NCBI GenBank assembly: GCA_029260135.1
Contig: JAJDDV010000058.1
Location: forward strand, 1 to 64,000
Length of the DNA: 64,000 nt
Direction: 5' to 3'
From: Phycisphaerae bacterium
GTDB lineage: Bacteria > Planctomycetota > Phycisphaerae > UBA1845
Positions within the stretch are counted from its first letter, which is position 1; every line of letters starts with the position of its first letter. Made by a program: the position numbers and the translations under genes. Under the pieces are notes generated by a model, which saw only the letters and a list, made by a program, of their open reading frames with translations, had not been told where the DNA came from and searched no databases. Positions 1,513 through 55,953 of this stretch are shown one piece after another.

Positions 1513-1568
1513 CGTGCAATCCTCGTCAGCGCGACGATAGTCCTTTGAACCCGTCCAATTCTACGCCG

Positions 1569-4507: not shown

Positions 4508-4522
4508 TCGGCTCGTTCGTCC

Positions 4523-40418: not shown

Positions 40419-41978
40419 TCAGGTCTTCACCTGTCGCACGCAATCGATGACGGTTCCGTCGACCCATTTGATGGCTGCGACGACCTTGTCGCCGAGTGAC
40501 GGTGGGGTGGGGGCGCCGCCGCAGAGCAACTCGACCTCGGCTTTGATGTCCTGGATCGGGCGGATCGGCAGGTCGCTTCCTTTGACGGCTTCGAGCAGAT
40601 CGGCGCGGCGCGGGTTGATGGCGATGCCGCGCTCGGTGACGATGACGTCAACCAAATCGCCGGGGCCGCACAGGGTGGTGACGCGATCGACGATCACCGG
40701 TATGCGATCTCTCACCGAAGGGATCGGAAGAATCACGCACTTGCCGAAGAGGCAGTTCTGCCAGCCGCCGATACCGTGGAGGAGGCGGCCATCGGAATGT
40801 GTCACGACGTTGGCATTGAAGTCGACGTCGACTTCGGTGGCGCCGAGTACGGTCGCGTCGAGCATGGAGGCGAAGTTGCCCTTGCCGTGGTAGTTGTAGC
40901 TGGTAAACGGGCTGGTGTCCTGGTGGTTGGGGTTGTCTCGCATCGAGCGGACGCCGTCGAGGTCGAAGGTCTGGCCGTCGAGGATGTAGTCGGTGAGGCC
41001 TTGCTCGAGCATTTCGACGAGGTATTTCGTGCTGCCGCCGCGGATGAACCGAGCGCTGACACCGGCGTCCTTCATCATCTCTTTGAGGAAAATTGCAAAG
41101 CCCAGCGCCGTTCCGCCTGCGCCGGCCTGGAAGGAGAAGCCGTCTTGCATGATGCCCGCGTCGCGAACGAAGCGTGCGGCGAGTTCGGCGATGAGGAGTC
41201 GGTCGGGGCTTTTGGTGAGCTGGGTGGTGCCCGAGACGATTTTGCTGGGGTCACCAATCGAATCCATCACAACGACCTGGTCGACGTTGTTGCCCTGGAT
41301 CTGCCAGGGGATGCAGGGGAAATCGATGAGGTTGTCGGTGACGACGATCACATGATCGGCGTAGATCGAGTCAGCCAGGGCGAAGCCGAGCAGGCCGCAA
41401 GCGGAGGGGCCGGTGACGCCGTTGGCGTTACCGAACGGGTCTGCAGTCGGCGCGGCGATGACGGCGATGTCGATGTGGACTTCGCCGTCCTGGATGGCTT
41501 GCCAGCGTCCGCCGTGCGAGCGGAGCACGCCCATGCCGCGCATCTTTCCGCTGGAGCAGTAGTCGCCGAGCGGGCCGTTCATGCTCCCCTCGATGTGGTG
41601 GATCACCCCTGATTCCAAGTGGTCGATGATTGGGGCGTGGCAGGGGAAGGACGCGCTGGGGAACCAGCGGAGGTCTTTGACGCCGAGTGCTGCGGCCGCT
41701 TCGAAGAGCGGGTTGGCGACCTTGTCGCCATTGCGGAAATGGTGGTGGGTGGAGATGGTTATGCCGTTGCGCAGGCCGGCGTTCTGTAAGGCCGTCTTCA
41801 GATTCGCGACGATCTTGCTGCCGCTGTCGGGATAGTCGGCGCAGGTGCGCAAGGGCGGCGCGGCTTTAGTCCCCTCGGGGCGATACTTGCCGACGCCCTG
41901 AAACGGAACGGCGGGCCTGCCGTTGATCTCGGTCGGGACGATTCGGCCGGCGGTGTTTCCGGTATGAGGCTGAGTCAC
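40419..41978 (-). CDS. citF: Citrate lyase alpha subunit-like CoA/ACP transferase (CitF)
   Basis: 519 residues from a GTG start (GGAG about 9 bases upstream), the usual CitF length. CitF exchanges the acetyl group of the acyl-carrier subunit for the substrate acid (citrate:acetyl-ACP transferase). Recognisable stretches: ISTHHHFRNGDKVANPL near the N-terminus, CSSGKMRGMGVLRSHGG, FSFQAGAGGTALGFAIFLKE and HIGGWQ-like HGIGGWQNCLFG. It is the last gene of a minus-strand metabolic operon and is separated from citDE by an MNT/HepT/HNH cassette. No citC, citX or citG (activation genes) is present here, so the ACP prosthetic group must be made elsewhere or the lyase acts on a CoA ester. Confidence 0.92.
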   Translation of the reverse strand: MTQPHTGNTAGRIVPTEINGRPAVPFQGVGKYRPEGTKAAPPLRTCADYPDSGSKIVANLKTALQNAGLRNGITISTHHHFRNGDKVANPLFEAAAALGVKDLRWFPSASFPCHAPIIDHLESGVIHHIEGSMNGPLGDYCSSGKMRGMGVLRSHGGRWQAIQDGEVHIDIAVIAAPTADPFGNANGVTGPSACGLLGFALADSIYADHVIVVTDNLIDFPCIPWQIQGNNVDQVVVMDSIGDPSKIVSGTTQLTKSPDRLLIAELAARFVRDAGIMQDGFSFQAGAGGTALGFAIFLKEMMKDAGVSARFIRGGSTKYLVEMLEQGLTDYILDGQTFDLDGVRSMRDNPNHQDTSPFTSYNYHGKGNFASMLDATVLGATEVDVDFNANVVTHSDGRLLHGIGGWQNCLFGKCVILPIPSVRDRIPVIVDRVTTLCGPGDLVDVIVTERGIAINPRRADLLEAVKGSDLPIRPIQDIKAEVELLCGGAPTPPSLGDKVVAAIKWVDGTVIDCVRQVKT

Positions 41979-42064
41979 TTACGAAATCTCCACAACACCC
42001 CGTCATCTTGAAGACTTCTTCGCGTGTGGAAGAGAATCCTGGAATCGTTGATGGGGTCTCAAAT

Positions 42065-42709
42065 CTAAACTCCTTCGAAGCCTTGTTCTGATTCAGAAAC
42101 CAGCGCAAAGAACGAACGGTTCTCGAAAAACGTCAATACAAACACAGAGTGAATACCATGTGAACCAATCCTCTCATAGGAATACTCGGCAACATCGCGC
42201 TCTCGATGTTGTGCGATCATCGAATCACGAAATGCCGCAGGGATCGCGTACTTCTGTACATCGGCCGATATACGACGATCGGAAACGGGAGTGAGTAACT
42301 TATGATGATAGCAAAGACCACGTACAATCTTGCGTAATATGCGACGTACCTTGTCGTCCTTTCCCGGGAACACTCTGTGGCGCAGTTGACCGTCGATCGA
42401 AACAGGTCTCATGTGCTCGGCTAGTTCTCGTCGACGATGTTGTCCATCCACTTTGCTAAAGCTGCGGAGTACTGTCTCCCAGTTCTCGAGAACGACAGCG
42501 TTGGGTTCCCCTGAGATGGTCAGCATGTCGCGAAAATGCGCCTCGTCGTCTGTCCATGAACTGTTGCATTTGGCGCATGCTGGAACTGTCAGAAGCTGTA
42601 CGTTCGATCTAGCCCTTGAAGAAGGGGGGTAGAGACATTTCGGAAACACATGTTCCCTCTCCAGTCTTGCGCCCACGGCACCACAATATGCACATGCGTT
42701 ACCTTTCAT
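42065..42709 (-). CDS. HNH-type nuclease-like protein in low-GC cargo
   Basis: 214 residues from the ATG at 42709 (MKGNACAYCG). An in-frame ATG at 42790 would add 27 residues, but that DNA encodes the hepT remnant in another frame. The N-terminal zinc/HNH module is CAYCG ... LEREHVFPKCL ... VPACAKCNSSW, followed by a helical body and a C-terminal beta region (HSVFVLTFFENRSFFALV). The gene is visibly less GC-rich than the surrounding operon, which points to recent acquisition. It begins exactly where hepT is cut off. It could be a homing-type or defence nuclease. Whether the upstream MntA still acts with it is unknown. Confidence 0.75.
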   Translation of the reverse strand: MKGNACAYCGAVGARLEREHVFPKCLYPPSSRARSNVQLLTVPACAKCNSSWTDDEAHFRDMLTISGEPNAVVLENWETVLRSFSKVDGQHRRRELAEHMRPVSIDGQLRHRVFPGKDDKVRRILRKIVRGLCYHHKLLTPVSDRRISADVQKYAIPAAFRDSMIAQHRERDVAEYSYERIGSHGIHSVFVLTFFENRSFFALVSESEQGFEGV

Positions 42710-42797
42710 CGGAGTACTGGCTTCGACCCTCTGCCTCAAGAAAGAACTCGCAGGAGCTTTGGATGTCGTAGAGGTATTTCTCAGGATCATGCGGCAT
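42699..42797 (-). pseudogene. hepT: HepT (HEPN/DUF86 toxin) remnant, first 32 codons
   Basis: The minus strand reads MPHDPEKYLYDIQSSCEFFL, then EAEGRSQYSDER and a TAA stop. This is a clean match to the N-terminus of HEPN/DUF86 proteins, which are normally about 110-140 residues. The ATG lies inside the end of mntA, the usual overlap for MNT-HEPN pairs. The rest of the protein, including the R-x4-6-H RNase motif, is missing; the HNH gene starts 10 bases inside the remnant's end. Hence the toxin is inactive here. It was too short to be noticed by length-based gene calling. Confidence 0.85.
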
Positions 42798-43098
42798 AGA
42801 CAAGCCTACGGGATTCGTTCAACCGTCGGAGAAAGAACGGGTTGTTCGGCGCACCCTCTTCGACGAGGTCAACGCGGCGACCGAAGAGTTCCGAAAGCGC
42901 TCGTTGGAGCCCGAAGAAGGTGTCGAACCGGCTCCCCTGCACCAAATCGCCGAGTTGAACGAGAAAGTCCAGGTCACTGCGCTCGACGTCAAACTCCGCG
43001 GTGGCGGCTGACCCGAAGACCTCCAGTCGTGCCACATGAAAGCGACGGCAGAGATCGGCGAGTTCGTTGTGATGTTCGGCGATTAGGGTATTCATCAC
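42787..43098 (-). CDS. mntA: MNT-type minimal nucleotidyltransferase (MntA antitoxin of MNT-HEPN pair)
   Basis: 103 residues. Nucleotidyltransferase signature: VARLEVFGSAATAEF, then SDLDFLVQLG (G-S ... D-x-D). MntA-type enzymes AMPylate and neutralise HEPN toxins. Its C-terminus overlaps the start of the truncated hepT. With the toxin broken, the gene is either an orphan under decay or has taken a new partner, for example the adjacent HNH protein. It sits 42 bases after citDE in the same orientation. Confidence 0.88.
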   Translation of the reverse strand: MMNTLIAEHHNELADLCRRFHVARLEVFGSAATAEFDVERSDLDFLVQLGDLVQGSRFDTFFGLQRALSELFGRRVDLVEEGAPNNPFFLRRLNESRRLVYAA

Positions 43099-43140
43099 AC
43101 TACAGATCCGCAGACGGACCTCATCTAACTCACGCTGTCA

Positions 43141-44403
43141 TTATACGCGGTTCATCGCCTCCGCCAAGCGTACGACCCGTTGGGCTCGTTTGACGACGGG
43201 GGGGTCTATCATCTTGGTGCCGAGGGAGACGACGCCGAGGCCTTTGCGCGTGGCGTCTTCGAAGGCGTCGACGATTCGGCGGGCCTTGGTCAGCTCGGCC
43301 TCGGTGGGGGCGAAGGCGTCGTGGATGACGGCGATCTGTCGAGGGTGGATGCAGCCCTTGCCGTCGAAGCCGAGGGACTTGGCTTCGAGGACGCTGTCGC
43401 GGAGGGCGTCCATATTGCCGACGTCGGAGAAGACGCTGTCGATCGGCTGGACGCCGGCCGCGCGGGCGGCGTTAACCACCTGGGCACGAGCCCAGAAGCT
43501 CTCGCTACCTTGCTGCGTTCGGGCGGCACCGATGTCGGCCGTGTAGTCTTCAAGGCCAATCGTCAGAGCGATGACGTTTGGCGAGGCGGTGGCGATGTCA
43601 TACGCGCGGATCGCGCCGAGGGCGCTTTCGACGATCGGCATCAAGTAGACGCGAGGTGCGTTCGCGCAGGCTGAAGCCTGCGGCTCGGGCGGTGGATTCT
43701 TCGTCGCTTCGTCGCTTCGTCGCTCCGTCGCTCCACATACCACTTGTTTGATTCGCTCGTCGACCTTTCGCACCTGCTCGGGGTCTTCGACCTTTGGGAT
43801 CAGGATGACGTGGACGTTGTGTGCGGCGATGACGTCGAGGTCTTCGAGGCCTCGATCGCCCTGGTTGATTCGCACCATGCGTTCCGAGCAGCGGAAGTCG
43901 ATGGTTCGCAGCGCATTGCGCACGAGAATGCGGGCGGCGTCCTTCTCGGGCGGCGCGACGCTGTCTTCGAGGTCCAGGATGATGCCGTCGGGATTGTGCA
44001 GTCCGGCGTTGAGCATGAACTTGGGTTCGTTGCCGGGCAGGTAGAGTCGAGAACGGCGGAAGCGGTCGCGCTCGGTGGTGGTGTCGGTGCCGGGCAAGCG
44101 GTCCTGGAGGAAGCCGTCGCCGACGTCGAGGCCCAATCTGCGGACAGCCGCTTCGACGCGAGCGGTCAGGACGAACGGGAGTGCGCCGTTGTCTTCGATC
44201 TCGACATTGGCGTTGGCCAGCCCGAGGGCTTCGAGTTCGTCGCTGATGAGTTGGCGGGTCGCGTCGCCATACATCGACTCGACTTTGCTCTTGAGGTCCA
44301 GGGCGATTCCGCCGGAATCGGTGGGCGTGATCTTCACCCAGCAATCGGAACGTGCGTCCGGTCCTCGTCGTCCGGCTTCAGCGGTATTGGTCTTGTTGGT
44401 CAT
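43141..44403 (-). CDS. citDE: Fused citrate lyase acyl-carrier (CitD) and beta subunit (CitE)
   Basis: 420 residues. The N-terminal about 95 residues match CitD: RSDCWVKITPTDSGG around the serine that would carry the prosthetic group, then LKSKVESMYGDATRQLISDE and NVEIEDNGALPFVLTARVEA. The remainder is CitE/HpcH-like lyase: RSRLYLPGNEPKFMLNAG, DGIILDLEDSVAP, MVRINQ, VYLMPIVESALGAI and IGLEDYTADIGA. CitE cleaves the acyl-ACP to acetyl-ACP and a 2-oxoacid. CitD and CitE are normally separate. Near the middle is an about 26-residue insertion (ERRSDEATKNPPPEPQ...) encoded by an 8-bp tandem repeat and a hairpin element, with potential for frameshift switching. Confidence 0.9.
   Translation of the reverse strand: MTNKTNTAEAGRRGPDARSDCWVKITPTDSGGIALDLKSKVESMYGDATRQLISDELEALGLANANVEIEDNGALPFVLTARVEAAVRRLGLDVGDGFLQDRLPGTDTTTERDRFRRSRLYLPGNEPKFMLNAGLHNPDGIILDLEDSVAPPEKDAARILVRNALRTIDFRCSERMVRINQGDRGLEDLDVIAAHNVHVILIPKVEDPEQVRKVDERIKQVVCGATERRSDEATKNPPPEPQASACANAPRVYLMPIVESALGAIRAYDIATASPNVIALTIGLEDYTADIGAARTQQGSESFWARAQVVNAARAAGVQPIDSVFSDVGNMDALRDSVLEAKSLGFDGKGCIHPRQIAVIHDAFAPTEAELTKARRIVDAFEDATRKGLGVVSLGTKMIDPPVVKRAQRVVRLAEAMNRV
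43665..43682 (+). repeat. TGAA-loop hairpin, family C, in frame within citDE
   Basis: Stem CGCAGGC / GCCTGCG with a TGAA loop, flanked by GTTCG and GCTCGGG as at 21249-21266. Compared with that copy, the stem carries a compensatory pair change. It encodes part of a PPPEPQASACANAP insertion that other CitE proteins lack. Confidence 0.75.
43700..43734 (+). repeat. Octanucleotide tandem repeat (TTCGTCGC x4) inside citDE
   Basis: Units at 43700, 43708, 43716 and 43724, the last with one substitution. The unit length of 8 is not a multiple of three, so gain or loss of one unit shifts the citE reading frame. It lies beside the in-frame hairpin at 43665-43682. Confidence 0.85.
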
Positions 44404-44410
44404 GAGCGTG

Positions 44411-44884
44411 CTAGTCGTTGCTTGTTAGTTCCAGTTCCATGAACCGTGCCCCTTCGATTGGATTCTCTCGATAGGCATTTGTGTCCTGGAAACCCAGCGA
44501 TTCATAGAGCGCGACGGCGGCTTCCATGGTCGGGAGGGTATCCAGCCAGATGCGTTCATAGCCGATCTTTCGGGCTTCGTCGATGACGCGGATGGCGAGG
44601 GTTCGCCCCAGGCCGGTGCCCCGGAAGCGCGGTCGTACGTACATTCGCTTAAGTTCGCCGACACCGGGCTGGAACTGGCGGAGTGCGACGCTTCCGGCAA
44701 TGTCGCCGCCGGCGACCGCAAGGAAGAGGCGGCCCATCGGTGGGGCGTAGTCGCCGGGGAGCTGCTCGATCTCGCGCTCGAAGTCCTGGAAGCAGAGGTG
44801 GAAGCCCAGGCTGTCGGCGTACTCATTGAAGATTGCGCGAACGGCATCGGTGTGCTCGCTTGTGTGGGCTTCGATGAGGTTCAT
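44411..44884 (-). CDS. GNAT-family N-acetyltransferase
   Basis: 157 residues from the ATG at 44884. Motif order is GNAT: beta-strand GRLFLAVAGGDIAGSVALR, acetyl-CoA loop VRPRFRGTGLGRTLA (R-x-x-G-x-G), then GYERIWLDTLPTMEAAVALY and ESLGF. The nearest description is a MarR-linked/YjcF-type GNAT acting on small molecules; the substrate is unknown. It lies between prpD and citDE, 7 bases before citDE, so it is expressed with the operon. It may modify the lyase or be an unrelated passenger, because hairpin repeats adjoin its 5' side. Confidence 0.88.
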   Translation of the reverse strand: MNLIEAHTSEHTDAVRAIFNEYADSLGFHLCFQDFEREIEQLPGDYAPPMGRLFLAVAGGDIAGSVALRQFQPGVGELKRMYVRPRFRGTGLGRTLAIRVIDEARKIGYERIWLDTLPTMEAAVALYESLGFQDTNAYRENPIEGARFMELELTSND

Positions 44885-44919
44885 GTGGTCGTCTTCATGT
44901 TCGAGGCCTCGCGGTCTTC

Positions 44920-44944
44920 CACCGGTTGGAAACCGGTGCCACAC
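44920..44944 (-). repeat. GTGTGG-flanked hairpin, family B copy 2
   Basis: Stem CACCGGTT / AACCGGTG with a GGA loop, then CCACAC; identical core to 38436-38460. It sits in the prpD-GNAT gap next to 44980-45004. Confidence 0.8.
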
Positions 44945-44979
44945 AGAGTGATCGCGCGACAGATTCCATCCAAGTCCGG

Positions 44980-45004
44980 CACTGCTCACAGAGCAGTGGC
45001 ACAC
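44980..45004 (-). repeat. GTGTGC-flanked hairpin, family B, variant stem
   Basis: Stem CACTGCTC / GAGCAGTG with an ACA loop, then GCACAC. Same layout as 44920-44944 but with a different stem, so the constant part is the flank and the pairing rather than the stem sequence. Confidence 0.75.
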
Positions 45005-45025
45005 AACGCGTCGCTCCGTCGCCTC

Positions 45026-46402
45026 TTAGTGCCTGTCCGCGACGGTCAGCGCCATCAGTTTGCCGACGTCGTCGATGGTGTCCAGTGCGAAGATGGCCTC
45101 GCGGAGCTGGGATCGCCGGCTTTCGCTCATGATCGGTTCGGCCAGGGCATCGAATTTCACTTTGATGTCGTCGATCGTCATCGGGTCGCGAGGGTCACCC
45201 TTGGGCACGTCGACCTGGTGCGTGAGCTGGCGGCCGTCCGTCGTCGTTATCGTTACGCGGGAACACTGTTTGGCCGGGAAGGCCTCTTCGAACTCCTGAT
45301 TGGCGACGACCTTGACCTTCGTCATCTGCGAGCGGAGGCGGTTGTCCCAGAGCTTCTCCTCCGTGAATTCCTGTGGCGTGACGCGCCCCTCAGCCAGGGC
45401 GGCGGCGATGCAGTAGGGGAGGCTGTGGTCGGCGGACTCCTTGCTCTGCGGGTCGTACTTGGCCGGGTCGGAGAGGATGTCAGCCGCACGGGCGATACTG
45501 TCAATCCGAACCTCCGTGATGTCCTCCGCATTGAGGCTGTGCTCTTTGAGAATGTGGAGCGTCGCGGAGACGGGCGAGTGCATGAGGGCTTCGATGGGGA
45601 AGGACTTCATGCCGCAATCCGTAATCATGAGTCGTTTGCCGAGTTCGTTGGTTATCCAACTGTAATCCCATCCCGTACCGAGGCAGTGTTCCATGCCCTC
45701 TTTGCCCTCGATGACACCTTCGGGGCCGGTGTATCCCTTTTGCGCGAGGAGGACGGCTTCGACGCCGGCGCGCGTGGCCATCGGGCTGACGGTGTTCTTC
45801 ATCATGGTGAGCTTGCCGGCCACGGCGCAGCCGAGGGTGAAGCAGCGAACGCTGGCGATGCCGATGGCGTGCTGCATCTTCTCCCAGTCGAGGCCGATCA
45901 TGCGTCCGGCGACGACGGGTGCGGCGTAGCCCATCAGTGTGGCGTGATGCCATCCTCGCTCGCGAATTCCAGGCAGGGCGATGTGGCAGAGTCGCTGACC
46001 CATTTCGTAGGCGATGATGATGCCGACGATCAGGTCCTTTCCGGTCAGGTGATCCCGTTCGGCCAGTGCCATCGGCGCGGAGAGTAGATCGCTGGGGTGC
46101 GAGGGGTCCTGCTTCCAGTAGATGTCGTTGTAGTCCATCGCGCGGATCATCAACGCGTTGAGCATCGATGCGCTCAGCGGGTTGAGCTTCTCGCCCGATC
46201 CGATGACGCTGCACTTACCTGGTCCGGCGACCTCGCGCTCGTGTTCGAGGAAGATCTTGACGTCGTGGACCTGATAGCCGCCGAGTGCGCAGCCGAGGGT
46301 GTCGTAGAGGAAGCGCTTGGCTGCATCGACAGCGTCGGCGGGGATGTCTTCGTACTTCAGGTTACACGCCCAGCGGGCGAGGGTCTCAGTGTGTGTTGGC
46401 AT
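45026..46402 (-). CDS. MmgE/PrpD-family dehydratase (2-methylcitrate dehydratase-like)
   Basis: 458 residues, normal for PrpD. Family features: ARWACNLKYEDIPADAV near the start, DTLGCALGG, the active-site-like NALMIRAMDYNDIYW and SDLLSAPMALAE region, then GWHHATLMGYAAPVVAGRM and CFTLGCAVAGKLTMMKN. PrpD dehydrates 2-methylcitrate, and in some cases citrate, to the cis-aconitate-type alkene without an iron-sulfur cluster. In this operon it sits with an aconitase-family hydratase and citrate lyase subunits, consistent with work on a citrate-like tricarboxylate. The exact substrate is unproven. Confidence 0.9.
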   Translation of the reverse strand: MPTHTETLARWACNLKYEDIPADAVDAAKRFLYDTLGCALGGYQVHDVKIFLEHEREVAGPGKCSVIGSGEKLNPLSASMLNALMIRAMDYNDIYWKQDPSHPSDLLSAPMALAERDHLTGKDLIVGIIIAYEMGQRLCHIALPGIRERGWHHATLMGYAAPVVAGRMIGLDWEKMQHAIGIASVRCFTLGCAVAGKLTMMKNTVSPMATRAGVEAVLLAQKGYTGPEGVIEGKEGMEHCLGTGWDYSWITNELGKRLMITDCGMKSFPIEALMHSPVSATLHILKEHSLNAEDITEVRIDSIARAADILSDPAKYDPQSKESADHSLPYCIAAALAEGRVTPQEFTEEKLWDNRLRSQMTKVKVVANQEFEEAFPAKQCSRVTITTTDGRQLTHQVDVPKGDPRDPMTIDDIKVKFDALAEPIMSESRRSQLREAIFALDTIDDVGKLMALTVADRH

Positions 46403-46423
46403 TCAAATGCTCCTTCAAATAAA

Positions 46424-46456
46424 GCTGTCAGCCCTCAGCCGTCAGCCGTCAGCCAG
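46424..46456 (+). repeat. Left flank repeat of four-helix-bundle cassette
   Basis: A run of degenerate 7-mers (GTCAGCC / CTCAGCC): AAGCTGTCAGCCCTCAGCC followed by two GTCAGCC units. The opposite flank at 46836-46863 is the imperfect reverse complement. Confidence 0.75.
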
Positions 46457-46466
46457 ATCTGTATTC

Positions 46467-46820
46467 TCATCGTCTCAGGCGCTGGTTCAGGCCCGTTAAC
46501 ATCCTCTTGATTTCCCGAACGCGCTCGTCAACGACGGCATGATCGGATTCGGTTACGTACTTCAGGTCTCGCGCGAGCAGCAGGAAATACTCGACTTCGC
46601 TGGCCGAGCCGAGCGCCATGTCAACGAACCGCGCGAAGTCCTTGTCGGTATGGCGGCAGCAGCCCTCCGCCAGATTCGCGCAAATCGATGCACAGGCGCG
46701 CCGAAGCTGGCTGGTCAGTCCGAAGCGTTCTTCTTGTGGAAATGTACGCGTGACTTTGTAGACACGAAGCGTCAGTCCATGGCTTTTCTGCCAGACACTC
46801 AAGTCTCGAAAGTCCTGCAT
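46467..46820 (-). CDS. Four-helix-bundle protein (S23/IVS family, TIGR02436-like)
   Basis: 117 residues: MQDFRDLSVWQKSHGLTLRV, then FPQEERFGLTSQLRRACASI and ANLAEGC, the standard signature of this family, first known from proteins encoded in 23S rRNA intervening sequences. The proteins form helical bundles and spread as small cassettes; their biochemical role is unknown. Here the gene is inserted between prpD and the HD hydrolase and is bordered by inverted GTCAGCC/GGCTGAT repeats (46424-46456 and 46836-46863). Confidence 0.9.
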   Translation of the reverse strand: MQDFRDLSVWQKSHGLTLRVYKVTRTFPQEERFGLTSQLRRACASICANLAEGCCRHTDKDFARFVDMALGSASEVEYFLLLARDLKYVTESDHAVVDERVREIKRMLTGLNQRLRR

Positions 46821-46835
46821 CCCTCTTTCCTTTGC

Positions 46836-46863
46836 TGAGAGCTGACAGCTGATGGCTGATGGC
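46836..46863 (+). repeat. Right flank repeat of four-helix-bundle cassette
   Basis: GCTGAGAGCTGACAG followed by two TGATGGC units; an imperfect inverted copy of 46424-46456. Its edge is at the stop codon of the HD-hydrolase gene (46863-46865). Confidence 0.75.
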
Positions 46864-47414
46864 TACTTCCTCTTCCCCAGTCCGCACGCGATGTCGAAAT
46901 CGATGAAATCGGCGTGGTGGAAGATGAGCGATTCGGTCGTTCGTTGCACGTGGTCGCCCTCTTTCGAGTGGGTCGCGACGATGTGCATGACCTCGTCGGG
47001 CAGGCCATGCTTCCAGCACATGCCGACGCCGGAGAAGGGGTGTCGCAGCATCTCACCGCGATAGCCCTTGGAGGGCGTGCCGTCTTTGCCCTTGACGAAC
47101 TCGATCGGTTTGCCGACGTCAGCCAACAGGGACCCAGCCACGAGATGGTCGTGGTGGATCGGCATGCGATTGCCCCAGACGCCGTTGAGGACCTTCTCGA
47201 TGGCGAGGCACATCTGCGCGCACGAGCGAACGTGCTCGATGAACTTCATCTCGATGTCGCCGGCGAGGAGTGTGAAGGGGATGTCCAGGAGTTCCTCCGG
47301 CGTCCATCCGCCGGTGGTGATGGAATCTTCCCAGACGTCGATCACTTTCTCGCGGAGTGTGGCGTCTTTGATCTCCGCGATTTCGGGTAAGAGTTCTTGG
47401 ATTCTGTTACGCAT
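46863..47414 (-). CDS. HD-domain metal-dependent phosphohydrolase-like protein
   Basis: 183 residues from the ATG at 47414. Metal-site residues: IHHDHLVAGSLLADVGKP (HD), RHPFSGVGMCWKHGLP (a second His), ATHSKEGD and IFHHADFIDFD near the end. HD proteins of this size hydrolyse nucleotides or phosphoesters. In this operon it sits between the aconitase and PrpD-type enzymes, where no HD enzyme is known to be needed, so its link to the pathway is open. The stop codon abuts the four-helix-bundle cassette. Confidence 0.82.
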   Translation of the reverse strand: MRNRIQELLPEIAEIKDATLREKVIDVWEDSITTGGWTPEELLDIPFTLLAGDIEMKFIEHVRSCAQMCLAIEKVLNGVWGNRMPIHHDHLVAGSLLADVGKPIEFVKGKDGTPSKGYRGEMLRHPFSGVGMCWKHGLPDEVMHIVATHSKEGDHVQRTTESLIFHHADFIDFDIACGLGKRK

Positions 47415-47454
47415 GGTGCTGATTCCTTCCGCGCCGGACCATTGTCGTCCGCCG

Positions 47455-49473
47455 TCAGTTGTCCAATGCCAATCGTTCACGGATGACGGCTTCGAAGCCG
47501 CCTTTCACAATGAGTTCCTGGGCCACCTCGCCGAGCGGGGCGAAGGTGTACTCTTCCCCACCGCAGTTGATCTTCGCTCGCTTGAAGTCGATCCGGGCTG
47601 CGGCGCCGGTTCGGATGCTGAGGGCCGCTTCGTGGGCTCCTCGGTCGACAGCGAACGTCGAGCGGAGATTGTCCACGAGCCTTGGGCACTCGATCACGAT
47701 GTATCCGTTATTGAACGCGTTGCGTTTGTAGGTCTGCGAGAAGGAACCCGCGATGACCATCTGAAGGCCTCGGTACTTGAGGGCGGTGGCGGCTTGCTCG
47801 CGGGAGGAACCTGATCCGAAGTTGTAGCCGCCGACGAGGATATCGCCATCGCGGGCGAGCTGCTGAAACTGCGGGTCGTAATTGAGCATGGCCTTGGTGG
47901 CCATCTCGTTCGGGCTCAGGTTCTCCTCATAGGTGAACTCCTTGCCGTAGATGCCGTCGGTGTTGAGATTGTCCTGGGGGACCAGGAGGAGTTCGCCCTC
48001 GATGAGTTCGGGGAAACCGTCGAGGATAGTGACGGGTTTGACGGCGGCGGCGGGGCGGGAGCACGTTTCTATAGAGCTGCCACGACGCAGCGCGTCGTGC
48101 AATGCGGATGGTGCGTCCGGGACGCACCCTACATTTTGGACGGCGCCGGCTCCCGTTGCTGGTGCTGCAATCCTTCCTGCGATGGCGGAGGCCGCGACCA
48201 CGGCGGGGCTGGAAAGATAGACCTGCGCTTCTCTGGAGCCCATTCGGCCCTTGAAATTGCGGTTCGTGGCGGAGATTCCAACTTCGCCGTCCTTGAGGAT
48301 TCCGTCTCCCAGGCCGATGCAGGGTCCACAGCCAGGCGGCAAGGCGACGGCGCCTGCGTCAAGGAGCGTGCCCCAATGACCCAGCCGTGTTGCCTCAGCT
48401 TCAATCTCGCTCGACGCGGCCGCGATGTAGAACGTGACACCGTCGGCCACCTTCTTTCCTTCGATGATCTTCGCGGCTTCGGCGAAGTCTTCCAGTCGGC
48501 CATTGACGCAACTGAGCAGGTAGGCCCGGTGGATCTTCACGTCGCGCGACTGAAGTTCAGGTAGGGGGGTGATCGTCTTGACCTCGTTGGGTCCTGCGAC
48601 GAAGGGTGTGACGGCTGAGAGGTCGAGGTGAAGCTCCTTGGCGTAGTAGGCGTCCGGATCGGCCGAGGGGAGGTCGGGCAGGAGCTGCGCGATCGAGTTC
48701 GGCGTGAGTCGCGGGGTCGCATCGGCGCGATCCTTCATCGTTTGGGCTCGCTCTGCCAGATAGTCGAGCGTGACACCGTCGAAGGGAAAGACACCCGCGA
48801 GCGCTCCCCACTCGGTGGTCATGTTGGCGATGGCCATCCGCTCGTCCATACGGAGCGACGCTGCTCCCTCACCGGTGAATTCGATGCAGCAGTTCAAGAC
48901 CTCGTCCTGATTGAAGCGACCGATCAGTGTAATAATGACGTCTTTTCCACTGACGCCGGGCTGGAGATTGCCGGTCAGGTTGACACGGACGATGTCGGGC
49001 ACCTGCCACCACGTTCGACCCGTCGCCCAGATAGCCGCCGCGTCCGTGCGAACGACGGGGGTCCCCAGGGCGCCCATCGCGCCGTACACGTTCGAGTGTG
49101 AATCGGACGCCACGGCGAATGTGCCCGGAAGAACGAAACCCTCTTCCATCATGATCTGATGACCGATACCGCGACCCGCCGGGAAGAACGTGACGCCTTG
49201 CTCGCCGGCAAATGCCTCGATCTTGGCGTACTTCGCCAGGTTGTCTTCTGCCTTATTCTGGATGTCGTGATCCAGGGCGTAGACAGGCTGAGTGGGATCC
49301 GCGATGCGCTTGGCGCCCATACTCTGAAACTTGGGTATGACGGCGGCGGTGTTGTCGTGGGTCATGACGTGCGCGGGGCGCATCGTCAGAAAGTCACCGG
49401 CCTGGACGCAGTGCTCATCCGATAGCCCGACGGCAAAGCGCTGGGCGATCTTCTCGATCAGGTTCTGTGGCAT
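47455..49473 (-). CDS. Aconitase-family hydratase of the homoaconitase type, single chain
   Basis: 672 residues; large and small subunit domains are on one chain, as in fungal homoaconitase, unlike bacterial LeuC/LeuD. Motifs: MTHDNTAAVIPKFQSMGA, ALDHDIQNKAEDNLAKY, FPAGRGIGHQIMMEEGFVLP, ASDSHSNVYGAMGALGTPVV and TDAAAIWATGRTWWQVP, all strikingly like Lys4. Iron-sulfur cysteines are in SCVNGR and GCGPC. The swivelling domain has YNFGSGSSREQAATALKYRG. An about 30-residue insertion (NVGCVPDAPSALHDALRRG) between the domains is encoded by two hairpin repeats (48081-48132). Reaction: reversible dehydration-hydration of a tricarboxylate, such as homocitrate, citrate or a methyl derivative. Confidence 0.9.
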   Translation of the reverse strand: MPQNLIEKIAQRFAVGLSDEHCVQAGDFLTMRPAHVMTHDNTAAVIPKFQSMGAKRIADPTQPVYALDHDIQNKAEDNLAKYAKIEAFAGEQGVTFFPAGRGIGHQIMMEEGFVLPGTFAVASDSHSNVYGAMGALGTPVVRTDAAAIWATGRTWWQVPDIVRVNLTGNLQPGVSGKDVIITLIGRFNQDEVLNCCIEFTGEGAASLRMDERMAIANMTTEWGALAGVFPFDGVTLDYLAERAQTMKDRADATPRLTPNSIAQLLPDLPSADPDAYYAKELHLDLSAVTPFVAGPNEVKTITPLPELQSRDVKIHRAYLLSCVNGRLEDFAEAAKIIEGKKVADGVTFYIAAASSEIEAEATRLGHWGTLLDAGAVALPPGCGPCIGLGDGILKDGEVGISATNRNFKGRMGSREAQVYLSSPAVVAASAIAGRIAAPATGAGAVQNVGCVPDAPSALHDALRRGSSIETCSRPAAAVKPVTILDGFPELIEGELLLVPQDNLNTDGIYGKEFTYEENLSPNEMATKAMLNYDPQFQQLARDGDILVGGYNFGSGSSREQAATALKYRGLQMVIAGSFSQTYKRNAFNNGYIVIECPRLVDNLRSTFAVDRGAHEAALSIRTGAAARIDFKRAKINCGGEEYTFAPLGEVAQELIVKGGFEAVIRERLALDN
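48081..48099. repeat. Hairpin in frame within the homoaconitase gene
   Basis: Perfect 8-bp stem CACGACGC / GCGTCGTG with a three-base loop. With the next hairpin (48110-48132) it makes up the in-frame insertion between the two domains of the enzyme. Confidence 0.75.
48110..48132 (-). repeat. GTAG-flanked hairpin, family A, in frame within the homoaconitase gene
   Basis: Perfect 8-bp stem GGTGCGTC / GACGCACC with a three-base loop, then CTAC (GTAG first on the coding strand). It has the same layout, including the preceding GATG, as 40366-40386. Confidence 0.8.
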
Positions 49474-49550
49474 ATCAACCGTTCTCTATCGGCGAACGCG
49501 GGATGATGGTTTGGAGTCTTCCCGTACCGGCCTGCTACGGGACTCCTGCG

Positions 49551-50732
49551 TTACAGTTTCTCGATGATCGCGTCGGTCATCTGTGTTGTGTTGACGGCTC
49601 CGTTGGCGAGCGCTTCGGGCCCGCCGGTCAGGCGCATCATGTCATACGTTCGGACTTTTCCCTCGGCCACGACGGTGCCGACCGCGGTACGAATTCGCTC
49701 CGAAGCTTTGGTCTCGCCGATGTGATCGAGCATCATGCAGGCGCTGAGGATCATGGCGATCGGGTTGACGATCGACGGCGAGAGTTGCTGATATTTCGGT
49801 GCGGAGCCGTGGGTCGGCTCGAAAACGGCGACCTCGCGGCCGATGTTGGCGCTGCAGGCGAAACCGAGTCCGCCGACGAGTCCGGCGAAGCCGTCCGAAA
49901 CGATGTCTCCGAACATGTTCCCGCTGACGAGAACGCCGTAGTCTTCCGGGTTCTTCGTGAGCCACATCATCTGGGCGTCGATGTTGGTTTCCCACAGGTC
50001 GATGCCCGCATAATTGCGTGCGGCCACCTTAGCCTCGGCGCGCAACATGCCGGAGGTTTCACGTATGACGTTGGGCTTTTCGCAGACGGTGACGGACTTG
50101 TAGCCGAATTTCTTGGCGTACGTAAACGCCTCGGTCATGATGCGTTGACAGGCGTTACGCGTGAAGATGCGCGTGGAGATCGCCAGGTCGCGTCCGGGGA
50201 CGGACTTGAAGCGTGCCATCCTCGGGTGGGTCTCCAGTGCACTACGAACCTCGTCGGGTGGATCGGTCCACTCGACGCCGGCGTAGAGACCCTCCGTGTT
50301 TTGGCGGAAGATGACGGCGTCGACCTCGGGCTCGTCGAAGCCATCGCCACTGCGCCGAATGAAGTTCAGCGGGTTTCCGGGGAAGGTCTGACAGGGACGG
50401 ATACTGACGTCGAGGTCGAAGTGCTGGCGGAGACCGACGATCGGGCTGGCGTAGACGTATCCCTTGTTGCGAAGCTCAGGCGCAAGTTCTTCGGCGGCCT
50501 GCTCCTTGGGCTTGGAGGTGATGGCCCCGAATAGCCCGAGCTTGTGCTGCCTCAGCAAATCGATCGTGCGATCGGGAAGCGCATTTCCCTCGGTTTTCCA
50601 GAACTCCCATCCGATGTCCGCGTGTACGTAGTCGGCGTCGAATCCTGAAGCCGCCAACACCCTCAGCGCCTCGGGCAGAACCGTCTCTCCGATTCCGTCT
50701 CCCGGCATGGTCACAATCGTTCTCTTGGCCAC
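49551..50732 (-). CDS. Isocitrate/isopropylmalate/homoisocitrate dehydrogenase-family protein
   Basis: 393 residues from a GTG at 50732 (AGGGAGA about 7 bases upstream; the TTG at 50735 is also possible). Beta-decarboxylating dehydrogenase features: PGDGIGETVLPEAL, DVSIRPCQTFPG, FRQNTEGLYAGVEW, the catalytic lysine in CEKPNVIRETSGM, metal-binding acids in LVSGNMFGDIVSDGFAGL, and FEPTHGSAPKY. Substrate loop and cofactor choice cannot be fixed by eye. As first gene of the operon, next to a homoaconitase-type enzyme, it fits oxidative decarboxylation of an (homo)isocitrate-like acid to a 2-oxoacid, or the reverse carboxylation. Confidence 0.9.
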   Translation of the reverse strand: MAKRTIVTMPGDGIGETVLPEALRVLAASGFDADYVHADIGWEFWKTEGNALPDRTIDLLRQHKLGLFGAITSKPKEQAAEELAPELRNKGYVYASPIVGLRQHFDLDVSIRPCQTFPGNPLNFIRRSGDGFDEPEVDAVIFRQNTEGLYAGVEWTDPPDEVRSALETHPRMARFKSVPGRDLAISTRIFTRNACQRIMTEAFTYAKKFGYKSVTVCEKPNVIRETSGMLRAEAKVAARNYAGIDLWETNIDAQMMWLTKNPEDYGVLVSGNMFGDIVSDGFAGLVGGLGFACSANIGREVAVFEPTHGSAPKYQQLSPSIVNPIAMILSACMMLDHIGETKASERIRTAVGTVVAEGKVRTYDMMRLTGGPEALANGAVNTTQMTDAIIEKL

Positions 50733-50735
50733 CAA

Positions 50736-51040: not shown

Positions 51041-52459
51041 ATGTTCGCAACGCAGGACGAGGCTCTGAAGTACATCGCAGACCAGGATATCGCCATGGTC
51101 GACCTGAAGATCTGCGGGATTGCGGGGCAGTGGCTCCATGTGACGATCCCCGCGCGGACCTTCGGCGACCGCCATTTTGAGGAGGGCGTGGGGTATGACG
51201 GTTCTTCCGGATCCGGCTTCACCACCGTCGAGAGCGGCGATGTCGCCGCCCGTCCGGTGCCCGAAACTGCCTTTCTCGACACTTTCTGCGAGCATCCGAC
51301 GCTGAGCTTCCTCTGTCGGACCGTCGCGGCGGACACGCGAGAGCCCTTCGCCAGCGATCCGCGGAGCATCGCCGAGAAGGCGGTGGAGTATCTTCGAGGG
51401 CTGGGCGTCGCGGACGAGGCGTTGATGGCGCCGGAGTTCGAGTTCCACGTTTTCGACCGCATCGAGATCGTCAACGACTCCTACCTCAACCTTGTGAACC
51501 TCGAGTCGCCGGAGATCGAAACGGACGGGCTGACGCCGGCGATTCCGGCGAAGCGGGGATATATGCGTTCGCCGCCGGCGGATCGGCTTCAGGACCTTCG
51601 CACCGAGATCGCACTGACGCTCGAGGCGATGGGTGTGTCGGTGCGGTATCACCACCACGAGGTCGGCGCACCGGGACAGTGCGAGATCGAGGTCGGACTT
51701 ACACCACTGGTGACCGCCGCCGATCAGGCCATGCTCATCAAGTATGTCGTCAAGAATACGGCCTTGCGTCATGGAAAGATCGCGACGTTTATGCCCAAGC
51801 CGGTGTACGGCGAGGCAGGAAACGGGATGCACGTTCATCAGAAGCTGGACGATGGTGGGAAGCCGGTTTTCTTCGATCACCAGGAAAAGAACTACGCCAA
51901 CCTCAGCGACACGGCGCTGCAATATGTCGGCGGGTTGCTCAAGCACGGTCCGGCGCTCACCGGGTTGACGAATCCGTCGACGAACTCGTTCAAACGGTTG
52001 GTGCCGGGCTTCGAGGCGCCGGTCAATCTGTTCTTCTCCTTGGCTAATCGCTCGGCAGCGATCCGTGTGCCGCGGTATGCGGTTTCTCCTGAGGAGAAGC
52101 GGATCGAGTATCGACCGCCCGACTTCACGGGGAATGTCTATCTGACGCTGGCGGGCATGTTGATGGCCGGACTCGATGGCATTCGTACGAAGATCGACGT
52201 CGGCAAGGCATCCTTCGGTCCGTATGATGTGGACATGGCCAAGGAGCCGGAGGAAGTCCAGCGCGAGATTACACCGTTGCCGCGTTCCCTTTATGATGCG
52301 ACGGGCGCGCTGGCGCGCGACCACGATTTCCTATGTCAGGGTGACGTCTTTCCGAGTTCATTCATCGAGAACTGGGTCTCCGCCCGGCGGCGCGACGAGA
52401 CGGAGGCCATCGCGACGCGGCCCCACCCCTTCGAATATGCCCTGTACCTCGATACCTGA
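51041..52459 (+). CDS. glnA: Type I glutamine synthetase
   Basis: 472 residues from the ATG at 51041, with GGAGG about 9 bases upstream. It makes glutamine from glutamate, ammonia and ATP. Motifs: VGYDGSSGSGF (near the N-terminal latch), APEFEFHVFD (metal), GAPGQCEIEVG, the ATP-site ATFMPKPVYGEAGNGMHVH, KRLVPGFEAPVNL and RSAAIRVPRY. The C-terminal LYDATGALARDHDFL aligns with the adenylylation region of GSI and keeps a tyrosine. Located 120 bases before gatE on the same strand, it could supply the glutamine used by GatDE. Confidence 0.95.
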   Translation: MFATQDEALKYIADQDIAMVDLKICGIAGQWLHVTIPARTFGDRHFEEGVGYDGSSGSGFTTVESGDVAARPVPETAFLDTFCEHPTLSFLCRTVAADTREPFASDPRSIAEKAVEYLRGLGVADEALMAPEFEFHVFDRIEIVNDSYLNLVNLESPEIETDGLTPAIPAKRGYMRSPPADRLQDLRTEIALTLEAMGVSVRYHHHEVGAPGQCEIEVGLTPLVTAADQAMLIKYVVKNTALRHGKIATFMPKPVYGEAGNGMHVHQKLDDGGKPVFFDHQEKNYANLSDTALQYVGGLLKHGPALTGLTNPSTNSFKRLVPGFEAPVNLFFSLANRSAAIRVPRYAVSPEEKRIEYRPPDFTGNVYLTLAGMLMAGLDGIRTKIDVGKASFGPYDVDMAKEPEEVQREITPLPRSLYDATGALARDHDFLCQGDVFPSSFIENWVSARRRDETEAIATRPHPFEYALYLDT

Positions 52460-52579
52460 CGGCGTTGTCCCCCCGGCGTAGGTCGCAGCGCCTGGGTCCC
52501 GGTTCCCGACGGTTTCCACGGTGCGTCGGGTGACCTATACTCTGCTCGGCGACCGCGAGTCCAGAGAGAAACCGCACGG

Positions 52580-54565
52580 ATGACGTTACCTTTCAAACCC
52601 TTCTCCGACATGACGCCCGAGGATTATGCGGCCATCGGTCTCAAGTGCGGCTTGGAGGTCCATCAGCAGCTTCTGACCGATCGCAAGCTTTTCTGCCGAT
52701 GCCCGGCCGGTCGTTACAGCGAAGAGTACCAGGCTGAGGTGCTTCGCCACATGCGTCCAACGCTCTCCGAGCTGGGCGAGTACGACGGAACGGCGTTGAT
52801 GGAGAAGAAGACGCGCAAGAACATCTTCTATCGCATCCATCAGGACACCGTTTGTACGTACGAATTCGACGATACGCCGCCGTTTCTTCCGGATGAGCGG
52901 GCGCTGGACATCGGTCTTGAAATCTCGCTACTCCTGCACTTGAACATGGTCAGCGAGATCCATATCTCGCGCAAACAGTACCTGGATGGGTCGATTCCCA
53001 CGGGATTCCAGCGCACGGCCATCCTCGGTGTGGGCGGTTGGATTCCCTACGGTGACCGGCGCATCGACATTCGGCAGCTCTCGATCGAGGAGGACTCTTG
53101 CCGCGAAGTCTCGGACATCGGTCACGATCGAATCTGCCTGACGGATCGGCTCGGGATGCCGCTGATCGAGGTCGTGACGGAACCGCAGATGGGGACGCCT
53201 GAAGAAACGGCTGAGGTCTGTCAGGTGATCCGTCTGATGTGTCGCTCGACGGGGAAAGTGCGGATCGGGTATGGCGCGGCTCGCGAGGACGTGAACGTGA
53301 GCGTTCGCGGTGGAACTCGGATCGAGATCAAAGGGGTGCCGCAGATCACGCGCATTCCGCTCCTCATTTACAACGAAGCGATGCGGCAGTGCTCGCTGCT
53401 GCACATTCGGGGTCTTCTTTCGCAGCGCGGGATCACGTCGGACACGTTGCAGTGCTCATCGGCTGACGTAACACGCGCGGTTGCGAAGACTCAGTTCGCG
53501 CCGATCCACGAGGCGTTGGCGGTCGGGCATCGCGTTCGGGTCGTCGTGTTGAAGGGCTGGTCGGGGCTGCTGAAGTTGCAGACGCAGGAGCAGACGACGT
53601 TTGCCAAGGAGTTCTCCGACCGCGTCCGCGTGATTGCGTGCCTGATGACCCTGCCCAATCTGGTGCATTCCGACACGGCATCGGACCTTCTGACCGTTCG
53701 CGATTGGAAGGCGTTGCGGAAGCGTGCCCGGGCGGATGAAAACGACGCACTCATCCTTGTGTGGGGAACCGAGGATGATGTACATACTGCTTGCGAGGAG
53801 ATCATCAACCGGGCCGTGGAGGCGACGGTAGGCATCCCCAGTGACACGCGGCAGGCGTTCAAGGACGGGACCAGCGGATTCGAGCGCGTGCTTCCCGGTC
53901 CGGAGCGGATGTATCCCGACACGGATTTGCCGCCGATCGCCATTCCGAAGACGCGGATTCAGCGGATTCGTGCGGGGCTTCGACCGCCGTCGTGGGAACG
54001 CATCGAGCGATATGAGGGCCTCGGTATTCCGGCGGATGTCATCGAACCGCTGAGTATCTCCTCACGGGCGGATCTGTTCGACCGTCTTGTGGGTGAGCTG
54101 AAGGTCGATCCGACGTTGGCATCGGTGATTCTGATTCAGCGCCTTAAATCGTTGCGCCGGTGCGGCCTGCACCCCGAGAAATTGAGCGATGAAGATCTGT
54201 TCGAGGTGTTCAGGGCGTACCGAGACGGTCAGGTCGCGCGCGAGGGGCTCGTTCCGTTATTGGAGGAATTGCTGAAAGACGCGCCGTCACCGGACGCCGA
54301 GCGTTCTGTGCGAGGCACTTTGGAGGGGTATCCGGCGCCACTGTTGGCCGTGGAAACCGACGAGGTGATCCAGCGGGCTGTGCTCAACGCGAGTTCGCGA
54401 GCCTTTCCAAGTGAGGAAACCAAGCACCGCTACATCATGGGGAGTCTGATGGACGACGTGCGCGGTCGGGTTGAGGGGCGGAGCGTGTCGACAGCGGTGG
54501 CCCGGTTGCTGCAAGACAGTGTCTCCGTCGAAGGGGCACGTGCGGTCGGCGAGGATAAGCGATGA
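52580..54565 (+). CDS. gatE: Archaeal-type Glu-tRNA(Gln) amidotransferase subunit E
   Basis: 661 residues, near the archaeal GatE size and far longer than bacterial GatB (about 480). Kinase-like amidotransferase domain: LKCGLEVHQQLLTDRKLFCR, CRCPAG, HISRKQYLDGSIPTGFQRTA, and LPLIEVVTEP-like GMPLIEVVTEPQMGTPEE, then AREDVNVSVRGGTRIEIKG. The middle part (about residues 285-420) includes the AspRS-like insertion that marks GatE, and the C-terminal helical YqeY-like tail closes the protein. GatE phosphorylates and amidates Glu on tRNA(Gln). It overlaps gatD by four bases (ATGA). GatDE is regarded as archaeal, so its occurrence here is unexpected. Confidence 0.92.
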   Translation: MTLPFKPFSDMTPEDYAAIGLKCGLEVHQQLLTDRKLFCRCPAGRYSEEYQAEVLRHMRPTLSELGEYDGTALMEKKTRKNIFYRIHQDTVCTYEFDDTPPFLPDERALDIGLEISLLLHLNMVSEIHISRKQYLDGSIPTGFQRTAILGVGGWIPYGDRRIDIRQLSIEEDSCREVSDIGHDRICLTDRLGMPLIEVVTEPQMGTPEETAEVCQVIRLMCRSTGKVRIGYGAAREDVNVSVRGGTRIEIKGVPQITRIPLLIYNEAMRQCSLLHIRGLLSQRGITSDTLQCSSADVTRAVAKTQFAPIHEALAVGHRVRVVVLKGWSGLLKLQTQEQTTFAKEFSDRVRVIACLMTLPNLVHSDTASDLLTVRDWKALRKRARADENDALILVWGTEDDVHTACEEIINRAVEATVGIPSDTRQAFKDGTSGFERVLPGPERMYPDTDLPPIAIPKTRIQRIRAGLRPPSWERIERYEGLGIPADVIEPLSISSRADLFDRLVGELKVDPTLASVILIQRLKSLRRCGLHPEKLSDEDLFEVFRAYRDGQVAREGLVPLLEELLKDAPSPDAERSVRGTLEGYPAPLLAVETDEVIQRAVLNASSRAFPSEETKHRYIMGSLMDDVRGRVEGRSVSTAVARLLQDSVSVEGARAVGEDKR

Positions 54566-55953
54566 TTTCACAGGGCGACGCTCTCAAAGGCTATCGCGGT
54601 CCCGCACGAAAGATGCTCGAGTGTCACGGCGTAGGCGTGTGGAGCGATGTCGTCGTCGAATCGACCAACGGGCACTTCGAGGGTCTGATTCTCCCGCGTG
54701 CCGAGACGGCCGACGATCGTCACATCGTGCTCAAGCTGGAGTCGGGCTACAACATTGGCGTCGAGGCCGAGACGATCACGAGTATTACGGAAATTGGTCG
54801 ACGAGAGGCCAACTACAAGATCCCCGAAAAGGAGTTTCCGGTCGATCCGGGGAAACCGAACATCTTGCTGTTGGGCACGGGCGGGACCATTGCAAGCCGG
54901 CTGGACTATCGAACCGGCGCGGTGATTCCGGCGTTCTCGCCGGGCGAGCTGTACGGATCGGTTCCGGAGCTGGCCGACATCTGCAATCTCCGGACGGAAA
55001 AACTCTACGGCGTGTTCAGCGAGAACATGGGTCCGGAGCAGTACATTCGGTTGGCGGGGCGGATCGGCGAGGCGATCGCGGAGGGGGTCGACGGTATCGT
55101 CATCGGGCATGGTACCGACACGATGCACCACACCGCGGCCATCCTGACGTTTATGGTTCAGAATCCTCCCGTCCCGATCGTCATGGTCGGGTCGCAGCGG
55201 TCATCCGATCGCCCCTCGTCCGACGCGGCCATCAATCTGATCAACGCGGTGAAGTCGGCCGCGGAAGGTGACATCGCCGAGGTTGTCGTTTGCATGTTCG
55301 GGCCGACGTCGGATCAATATGACCTGCTCCACCGAGGCACACGGGTGCGGAAGATGCACTCGAGTTACCGCTCCACGTTTCGGACGATCGGTGATATTCC
55401 TTTGGCGCTGGTCGAGTCCGAGCGAATCGACTACCTGCGTCAGGATTTCAAGCGGCGTCGCGATGATCGCGAAGTGACGATCAACACGGCCTTTGAAGAT
55501 AAGGTGACGATTCTCTACTACTACCCGGGAATGAGGCCGGATGTGGTGGATGCCATCGTCGAGAAGGGCTATCGCGGGATCGTCATCGCCGGGACCGGGC
55601 TGGGGCATATCAACAAGCCGCTCTATCCGGCCATTCGGCGCGCGGCGGAGGCAGGCGTACACATCTACATGACCGTGCAAACATTGTGGGGTTATGTGCA
55701 GATGTACGTCTACGAGACCGGTCGCGAGATCATGGAACTGGGCGTGGTCCCGGCCGCCAACATGCTTCCCGAGGTGGCCTATATGAAACTCTGCTGGGCG
55801 CTGGGGCAGTCAGACGATCCGGACGAGGTACGCCGCATCATGCTCACCCCGGTGGCGGACGAGATCACCGATCGCGAACCCTACAACGGCTACCTCATCA
55901 TGCAGGGGGCGATCCCCGAGGTGCAGGAGTTCCTGCGGACGACGAAGCGCTAG
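54562..55953 (+). CDS. gatD: Archaeal-type Glu-tRNA(Gln) amidotransferase subunit D (asparaginase-like glutaminase)
   Basis: 463 residues, start overlapping gatE. An N-terminal beta-barrel-like domain of about 90 residues (GVGVWSDVVVESTNGHFEG) precedes the asparaginase fold, as in GatD and unlike plain asparaginases. Catalytic motifs: LLLGTGGTIAS (nucleophile T109), GIVIGHGTDTMHHTA (T185, D186), MVGSQRSSDRPSSDAAINL. It releases ammonia from glutamine and channels it to GatE. Its TAG stop (55951-55953) lies in the CTAG at the border of the inserted element at 55950-56074. Confidence 0.92.
   Translation: MISQGDALKGYRGPARKMLECHGVGVWSDVVVESTNGHFEGLILPRAETADDRHIVLKLESGYNIGVEAETITSITEIGRREANYKIPEKEFPVDPGKPNILLLGTGGTIASRLDYRTGAVIPAFSPGELYGSVPELADICNLRTEKLYGVFSENMGPEQYIRLAGRIGEAIAEGVDGIVIGHGTDTMHHTAAILTFMVQNPPVPIVMVGSQRSSDRPSSDAAINLINAVKSAAEGDIAEVVVCMFGPTSDQYDLLHRGTRVRKMHSSYRSTFRTIGDIPLALVESERIDYLRQDFKRRRDDREVTINTAFEDKVTILYYYPGMRPDVVDAIVEKGYRGIVIAGTGLGHINKPLYPAIRRAAEAGVHIYMTVQTLWGYVQMYVYETGREIMELGVVPAANMLPEVAYMKLCWALGQSDDPDEVRRIMLTPVADEITDREPYNGYLIMQGAIPEVQEFLRTTKR

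Follow-up and report, generated by a model that had tools for sequence, protein, structure and literature searches.

A Bacterial GatDE Amidotransferase Encoded Beside Glutamine Synthetase in a Phycisphaerae Genome That Also Carries GlnRS

Organization of the glnA-gatE-gatD Locus

The window (the whole stretch of 64,000 nucleotides that was analyzed) belongs to the genome of a Phycisphaerae bacterium and carries three consecutive genes on its plus strand. The first one, glnA (51041..52459; both boundaries were checked and are correct), encodes a type I glutamine synthetase (TIGR00653, 465 bits) and is located upstream of gatE on the same strand, with 120 bp between its end and the gatE start. 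The gene gatE (52580..54565, plus strand) encodes a protein of 661 aa assigned as subunit E of the Glu-tRNA(Gln) amidotransferase, and gatD (54562..55953, plus strand) a protein of 463 aa predicted to be the amidase subunit that provides ammonia from glutamine (or asparagine). The stop codon of gatE and the start codon of gatD overlap as ATGA (54562-54565), as the first-pass annotation of this DNA had described. GC and GC3 of glnA, gatE, and gatD equal the values of the adjacent genes, and no Rfam motifs were found near the locus.

Two further gene groups of the window are encoded on the minus strand. The products of the group at 40419-50735, which is oriented divergently from glnA-gatE-gatD, resemble in sequence citrate lyase subunits, a MmgE/PrpD protein, aconitase, and isocitrate dehydrogenase. 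The group at 247-6235 consists of type IV pilus or type II secretion-like genes (PilC, PilB, PilT, and a second PilB-like gene).

Comparative in silico Analysis of GatE and GatD

The GatE protein of the window scored 517 bits with the GatE model NF003107 (cut-off 456) and 443 bits with TIGR00134 (cut-off 319.6), whereas the best GatB model reached 135 bits, far below its cut-off of 338. Pfam analysis revealed GatB_N, an AspRS-like (GAD) insertion, and GatB_Yqey. The insertion comprises residues 296-405 (53465..53794, plus strand; Pfam GAD 309-405). The YqeY-like tail, a putative tRNA-binding region, comprises residues ~560-645 (54257..54514, plus strand); here GatB_Yqey scored 23.6 bits, just under the cut-off of 27, and the GatE models align over the full length. 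An AlphaFold model, for which 42 bacterial sequences were used, reached a mean pLDDT of 85.6 (~69-92 in the tail block) and contained both the insertion and a folded tail, the two features that the first-pass annotation had noticed. The domain order is a catalytic cradle with the AspRS-like insertion, a helical domain, and the YqeY tail. The nearest solved structures of the window GatE are the GatE chains 1zq1_C and 2d6f_C, with an alignment spanning residues 15-646, and the top Foldseek hits of the predicted model were 1zq1_C and 2d6f, followed by GatB.

For the GatD protein, the TIGR02153 score was 511 bits (cut-off 324). The protein combines a type I asparaginase fold, represented by both asparaginase domains of Pfam, with the GatD-specific N-terminal domain (GatD_N, 54 bits, cut-off 25.7; residues 29-75, 54646..54786, plus strand). 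Its top matches in the PDB are 2d6f_A and 1zq1_A.

Alignment with the proteins of Methanothermobacter thermautotrophicus placed the Mg-site residues H15, E157, and E184 of GatE at H28, E170, and E197 of the window GatE. Likewise, the catalytic residues T101, T177, D178, and K254 of GatD correspond to T109, T185, D186, and K264 of the window GatD. The three GatE residues were invariant in 84/84 bacterial sequences and the four GatD residues in 72/72.

The window system thus shares with the archaeal GatDE of Pyrococcus abyssi (1zq1) and M. thermautotrophicus (2d6f) both subunits, the full domain order, the AspRS-like insertion, the GatD N-terminal domain, and all catalytic residues. With bacterial GatCAB it has the chemistry in common as well as the catalytic, helical, and tail domains that GatB shares with GatE; unlike GatCAB, it has a GatD-type amidase and the AspRS-like insertion, and no GatA was found. 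Model scores, catalytic residues, AlphaFold model, and Foldseek agree, and at the level of sequence and predicted structure they confirm that the gene pair is a real, intact GatDE, as the first-pass annotation had recognized.

GlnRS, Amidotransferases, and tRNA(Gln) of the Host Genome

The host assembly (5.35 Mb, 224 contigs, 94.8% complete) has Phycisphaerae as nearest named relatives and is a bacterial genome. It encodes GlnRS in two pieces: contig C25 terminates with the coding region of the N-terminal 242 residues, the remainder is found at the start of contig C59, and the two parts join at residues HRP. This GlnRS ends shortly past the anticodon-binding domain and is not adjacent to gatED. 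Profile searches of the contigs revealed no match to GatA and no GatB apart from the GatE match. The first-pass annotation had suggested that GatDE perhaps replaced GatCAB; the absence of GatA and GatB matches agrees with this, but the presence of GlnRS speaks against a replacement in Gln-tRNA synthesis, and a replacement of GlnRS by GatDE is likewise rejected. AsnRS was also found, together with two proteins above the AsnB cut-off. Given GlnRS, AsnRS, and AsnB, neither Gln-tRNA nor Asn-tRNA seems to depend on GatDE in this host, and a role of GatDE in serving asparagine is unlikely.

All Archaea lack GlnRS. A missing GlnRS is a rule of how GatDE is distributed rather than a property of the protein itself, and the GlnRS of the present host therefore leaves the membership of the window proteins in GatDE intact. 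The A1-U72 pair of tRNA(Gln) is a trait of the archaeal substrate and not of the GatDE protein. Of the archaeal-type identity elements, which the first-pass annotation had proposed to look for, the A1-U72 pair is not present in the host: both tRNA(Gln) genes have the bacterial pair U1-A72. The UUG isoacceptor of the host (L084:201-272) carries A73 in place of G73, and the tRNA-Gln(UUG) of one relative (G001, L228) combines A73 with an A1-U72 pair, like the archaeal tRNA. Comparison of relatives with and without GatDE revealed no consistent difference in tRNA(Gln).

The host has a single GluRS, which lacks one residue at the position of T. thermophilus Arg358. This site was altered in all members of the order examined, with and without GatDE, and the Arg was kept in the GluRS of an Ignavibacteria genome with GatDE. 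As a marker, this discrimination site was uninformative.

Distribution of GatDE in Bacteria

Among the 40 genomes of the order (the host and 39 relatives), GatE was above cut-off in 19, with a fragment in one more, GlnRS in 33, with further ones as fragments, and GatA in 32. Most GatDE-bearing relatives retain both GatCAB and GlnRS; three GatE genomes (the host, G006, and G031) showed neither GatA nor GatB. In a sample covering the whole planctomycete phylum, GatE was detected in 22 of 294 genomes.

A scan of GTDB contigs revealed at least 573 species contigs that encode a GatE of the window type. The best 80 of them were all bacterial and included Phycisphaerae, Aminicenantes, Ignavibacteria and other Bacteroidota-side groups, Calditrichota, KSB1, Neomarinimicrobiota, Latescibacterota, Cloacimonadota, Gemmatimonadota, and Krumholzibacteriota. 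In most of the bacterial gatE genomes inspected gatE and gatD were adjacent; at three loci, L077 (G015), L104, and L162, gatE had no recognizable gatD beside it although flanking sequence was there. GlnRS was above cut-off in 40 and GatB in 24 of 50 named bacterial gatE genomes. Two single-contig chromosomes (G047 and G085) carry GlnRS and GatDE and no GatB above cut-off. By these sequence searches, numerous bacteria seem to possess the genes for both the direct and the indirect formation of glutamine-tRNA.

Some genomes differ in this respect. Three GatE-bearing genomes of 94-97% completeness (G101, G151, and G188) had one GluRS-type synthetase and no GlnRS match in a search for GlnRS and GluRS. 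In a member of Neomarinimicrobiota (G077, L165), GatE was accompanied by two full-length GluRS, and neither GlnRS nor GatB was found; here GatDE may be the sole Gln-tRNA route. The natural reading of these four gene sets is that GatDE would have its canonical role there.

Phylogeny of GatE

A tree of 84 bacterial and two archaeal GatE sequences, rooted with GatB, separated GatE from GatB with full support. Support was 92 for the side that comprised the 84 bacterial GatE and 99 for the opposite side with the two archaeal GatE. Within the bacterial side, 23 Planctomycetota of the order constituted one clade (100), and G029 was located alone elsewhere on a long branch. The window GatE is 49-69% identical to GatE of many bacterial phyla. 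The archaeal pair shares 52% mutual identity and is 31-38% identical to bacterial GatE. In a wider planctomycete set, the archaeal pair joined beside the GlnRS-less planctomycetes with weak support.

The comparison with archaeal GatDE proposed in the first-pass annotation thus places the protein apart from GatB, as had been expected, but in a bacterial branch distinct from the two archaeal GatE. By this tree with its two archaeal members, the window GatDE belongs to an old bacterial branch that extends over more than 10 bacterial phyla; with about half of the sampled order possessing GatDE, this does not agree with the recent single horizontal acquisition that had been suggested. With two archaeal GatE usable, the ultimate origin of bacterial GatDE may be either shared ancestry or an ancient archaeal transfer. 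The sole match in a search for archaeal sequences to root the tree was a broken, unannotated gatE with in-frame stop codons on a plasmid of Natrinema thermotolerans (L209:3001-4634, CP031304.1), and a scan of viral contigs gave no relative.

Linkage of gatED to glnA and glnS

A glutamine synthetase homolog is located next to gatED, in the orientation of gatE, in seven lineages, namely the window and G018 (counted as one, with glnA-gatE-gatD syntenic in both), G029, Krumholzibacteriota (L181 and L182), G118, G151, G122, and G235. It is located upstream in some lineages and downstream in others. Against seven, a chance expectation of ~0.3-1.2, which assumes a few glutamine synthetase genes per genome and several neighbors per locus, gave a probability of 2.5e-4 or less. 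The significance that the first-pass annotation attached to the adjacent glnA is supported by this same-strand recurrence.

Moreover, in one planctomycete family (f41; G116, G141, and G161) a GlnRS-YqeY fusion gene (NF011291) is directly followed by gatE and then by gatD in an operon (L280:1367-7490, L281, and L282), with overlapping stop and start codons in L280. The host GlnRS, which stops soon past its anticodon-binding domain, is unlike this fusion and does not lie beside gatED. No third gene conserved beside gatED across phyla was found. Among 54 loci, the sole tRNA gene adjacent to gatE was a tRNA-Glu(CTC) directly upstream of it (L167:2756-2832). The linkage to glnA and glnS points to a tie of GatDE to glutamine and Gln-tRNA.

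Possible Function of Bacterial GatDE

GatDE coexists with GlnRS, has kept its domain architecture and active sites, and forms a two-gene operon in most genomes. On the sequence evidence, we give slightly better than an even chance to the reading that bacterial GatDE supplements GlnRS by amidating Glu-tRNA(Gln), either as a second route or as a repair. GatD would release ammonia from glutamine provided by the glutamine synthetase of the gene cluster, GatE together with ATP would activate the side chain of the glutamate on Glu-tRNA(Gln), and Gln-tRNA(Gln) would be the product. The Glu-tRNA(Gln) converted in this way would arise from GluRS or from an error of GlnRS, and the activity is probably linked to the nitrogen or glutamine state via glnA. 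Since GlnRS already supplies Gln-tRNA(Gln), GatDE would constitute a second route or a repair step. Against this reading we count that the GatE tail is far more variable than that of GatB or of the archaeal pair, that tRNA(Gln) does not differ consistently with the presence of GatDE, and that the deletion at the Arg358 site of the host GluRS, shared with GatDE-free relatives, does not single out a non-discriminating GluRS as partner.

In the main rival reading, the substrate of GatDE has changed: the catalytic pair would be kept, acting on another aminoacyl-tRNA or a non-translational substrate, with recognition of tRNA(Gln) lost. The canonical role is dispensable where GlnRS is present. In archaeal GatDE, the GatE tail touches the D-loop of tRNA(Gln). 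At equal identity of the catalytic domain (66-74%), tail identity was 19% in bacterial GatE vs. 56% in GatB, the GatB pairs being mostly from the same order; in the archaeal GatE pair it was 40% at a catalytic-domain identity of 59%. GatD was unusually conserved, reaching 72% where GatE reached 52%, whereas the corresponding values of the two archaeal systems are 58% and 53%; within the order, GatD encoded beside GatE is 71-87% identical across genera. In addition, many fixed residues are specific to bacteria. The tail divergence may point to tRNA recognition that is relaxed or altered. However, tail identity was also low (28%) in the GlnRS-less planctomycetes, so the divergence is not decisive; as proof of lost tRNA binding it is weakened, and it does not prove a new substrate. 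The YqeY tail still folds in the predicted model, and the glnA linkage in seven lineages as well as the glnS operon indicate glutamine and Gln-tRNA. A change of substrate is rather unlikely, at somewhat above one chance in five.

It is improbable that GatDE is a decaying relic, i.e., a Gln-tRNA route that preceded GlnRS and is now redundant. Its patchy occurrence (about half of the order and the small share of the phylum sample), the few genomes with GatE and no adjacent GatD, and the relaxed tail would fit such a history, but all catalytic residues are invariant in more than 10 phyla and GatD is ~80% identical across genera. The dN/dS of the GatE catalytic domain was 0.02-0.16 between pairs of relatives, and by this sequence measure the catalytic parts of GatDE were shown to be under strong purifying selection.

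Still less probable, and refuted as far as replacement in Gln-tRNA synthesis is concerned by the host GlnRS, is a recent horizontal gain from Archaea in which GatDE took the place of GatCAB and became the only source of Gln-tRNA. The host without GatA or GatB matches and reviews placing GatDE in Archaea only (PMC9499178) are in its favor; the higher identity to bacterial than to archaeal GatE within one bacterial branch, the retention of GatCAB and GlnRS in most GatDE relatives, and a base composition like that of neighboring genes are against it. A chimeric contig or archaeal contamination, conceivable for a fragmented MAG of 224 contigs, is refuted: GatDE also occurs in 18 further members of the order and on single-contig chromosomes, glnA-gatE-gatD is syntenic in G018, and the base composition matches that of neighboring genes.

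Returning to the second or repair route, a parallel is the dual formation of Asn-tRNA(Asn) in Bdellovibrio and Deinococcus, where a direct route by AsnRS exists side by side with an indirect one by ND-AspRS and the amidotransferase GatCAB (PMC4206432). The dual system supplies asparagine where AsnA and AsnB are missing (PMC4206432), whereas the amide of the window system is glutamine and glutamine synthetase is present. From archaeal GatDE, the bacterial system differs in its low identity, its very variable tail, its bacterial hosts, the GlnRS beside it, the U1-A72 tRNA(Gln), and the recurrent glnA linkage.

A 2014 survey described bacteria with both Gln-tRNA routes as unknown (PMC4206432), and a 2022 review confined GatDE to Archaea (PMC9499178), the view also taken in the first-pass annotation. 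Both statements fail, given at least 573 GTDB species contigs with GatE, of which the best 80, those inspected, were all bacterial and usually accompanied by GlnRS. The literature searched, with subscription papers outside its scope, gave no report of bacterial GatDE. Automatic annotation at NCBI would already label bacterial genes of the window type as GatE.

A more far-reaching reading, at clearly less than even confidence, is that a large, unrecognized bacterial branch of GatDE goes beyond Gln-tRNA synthesis: in bacteria with GlnRS it may either work with glutamine synthetase and GlnRS in a glutamine-sensing or editing system that repairs Glu-tRNA(Gln) or be an amidotransferase repurposed for a new substrate. 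Such bacteria would be the first cells known with both Gln-tRNA routes. The finding is relevant to the way in which Gln-tRNA was formed in the last common ancestor, to the spread of GlnRS among bacteria, and to the reason for the coexistence of two routes, and the linkage to glnA and glnS renders the question directly testable.
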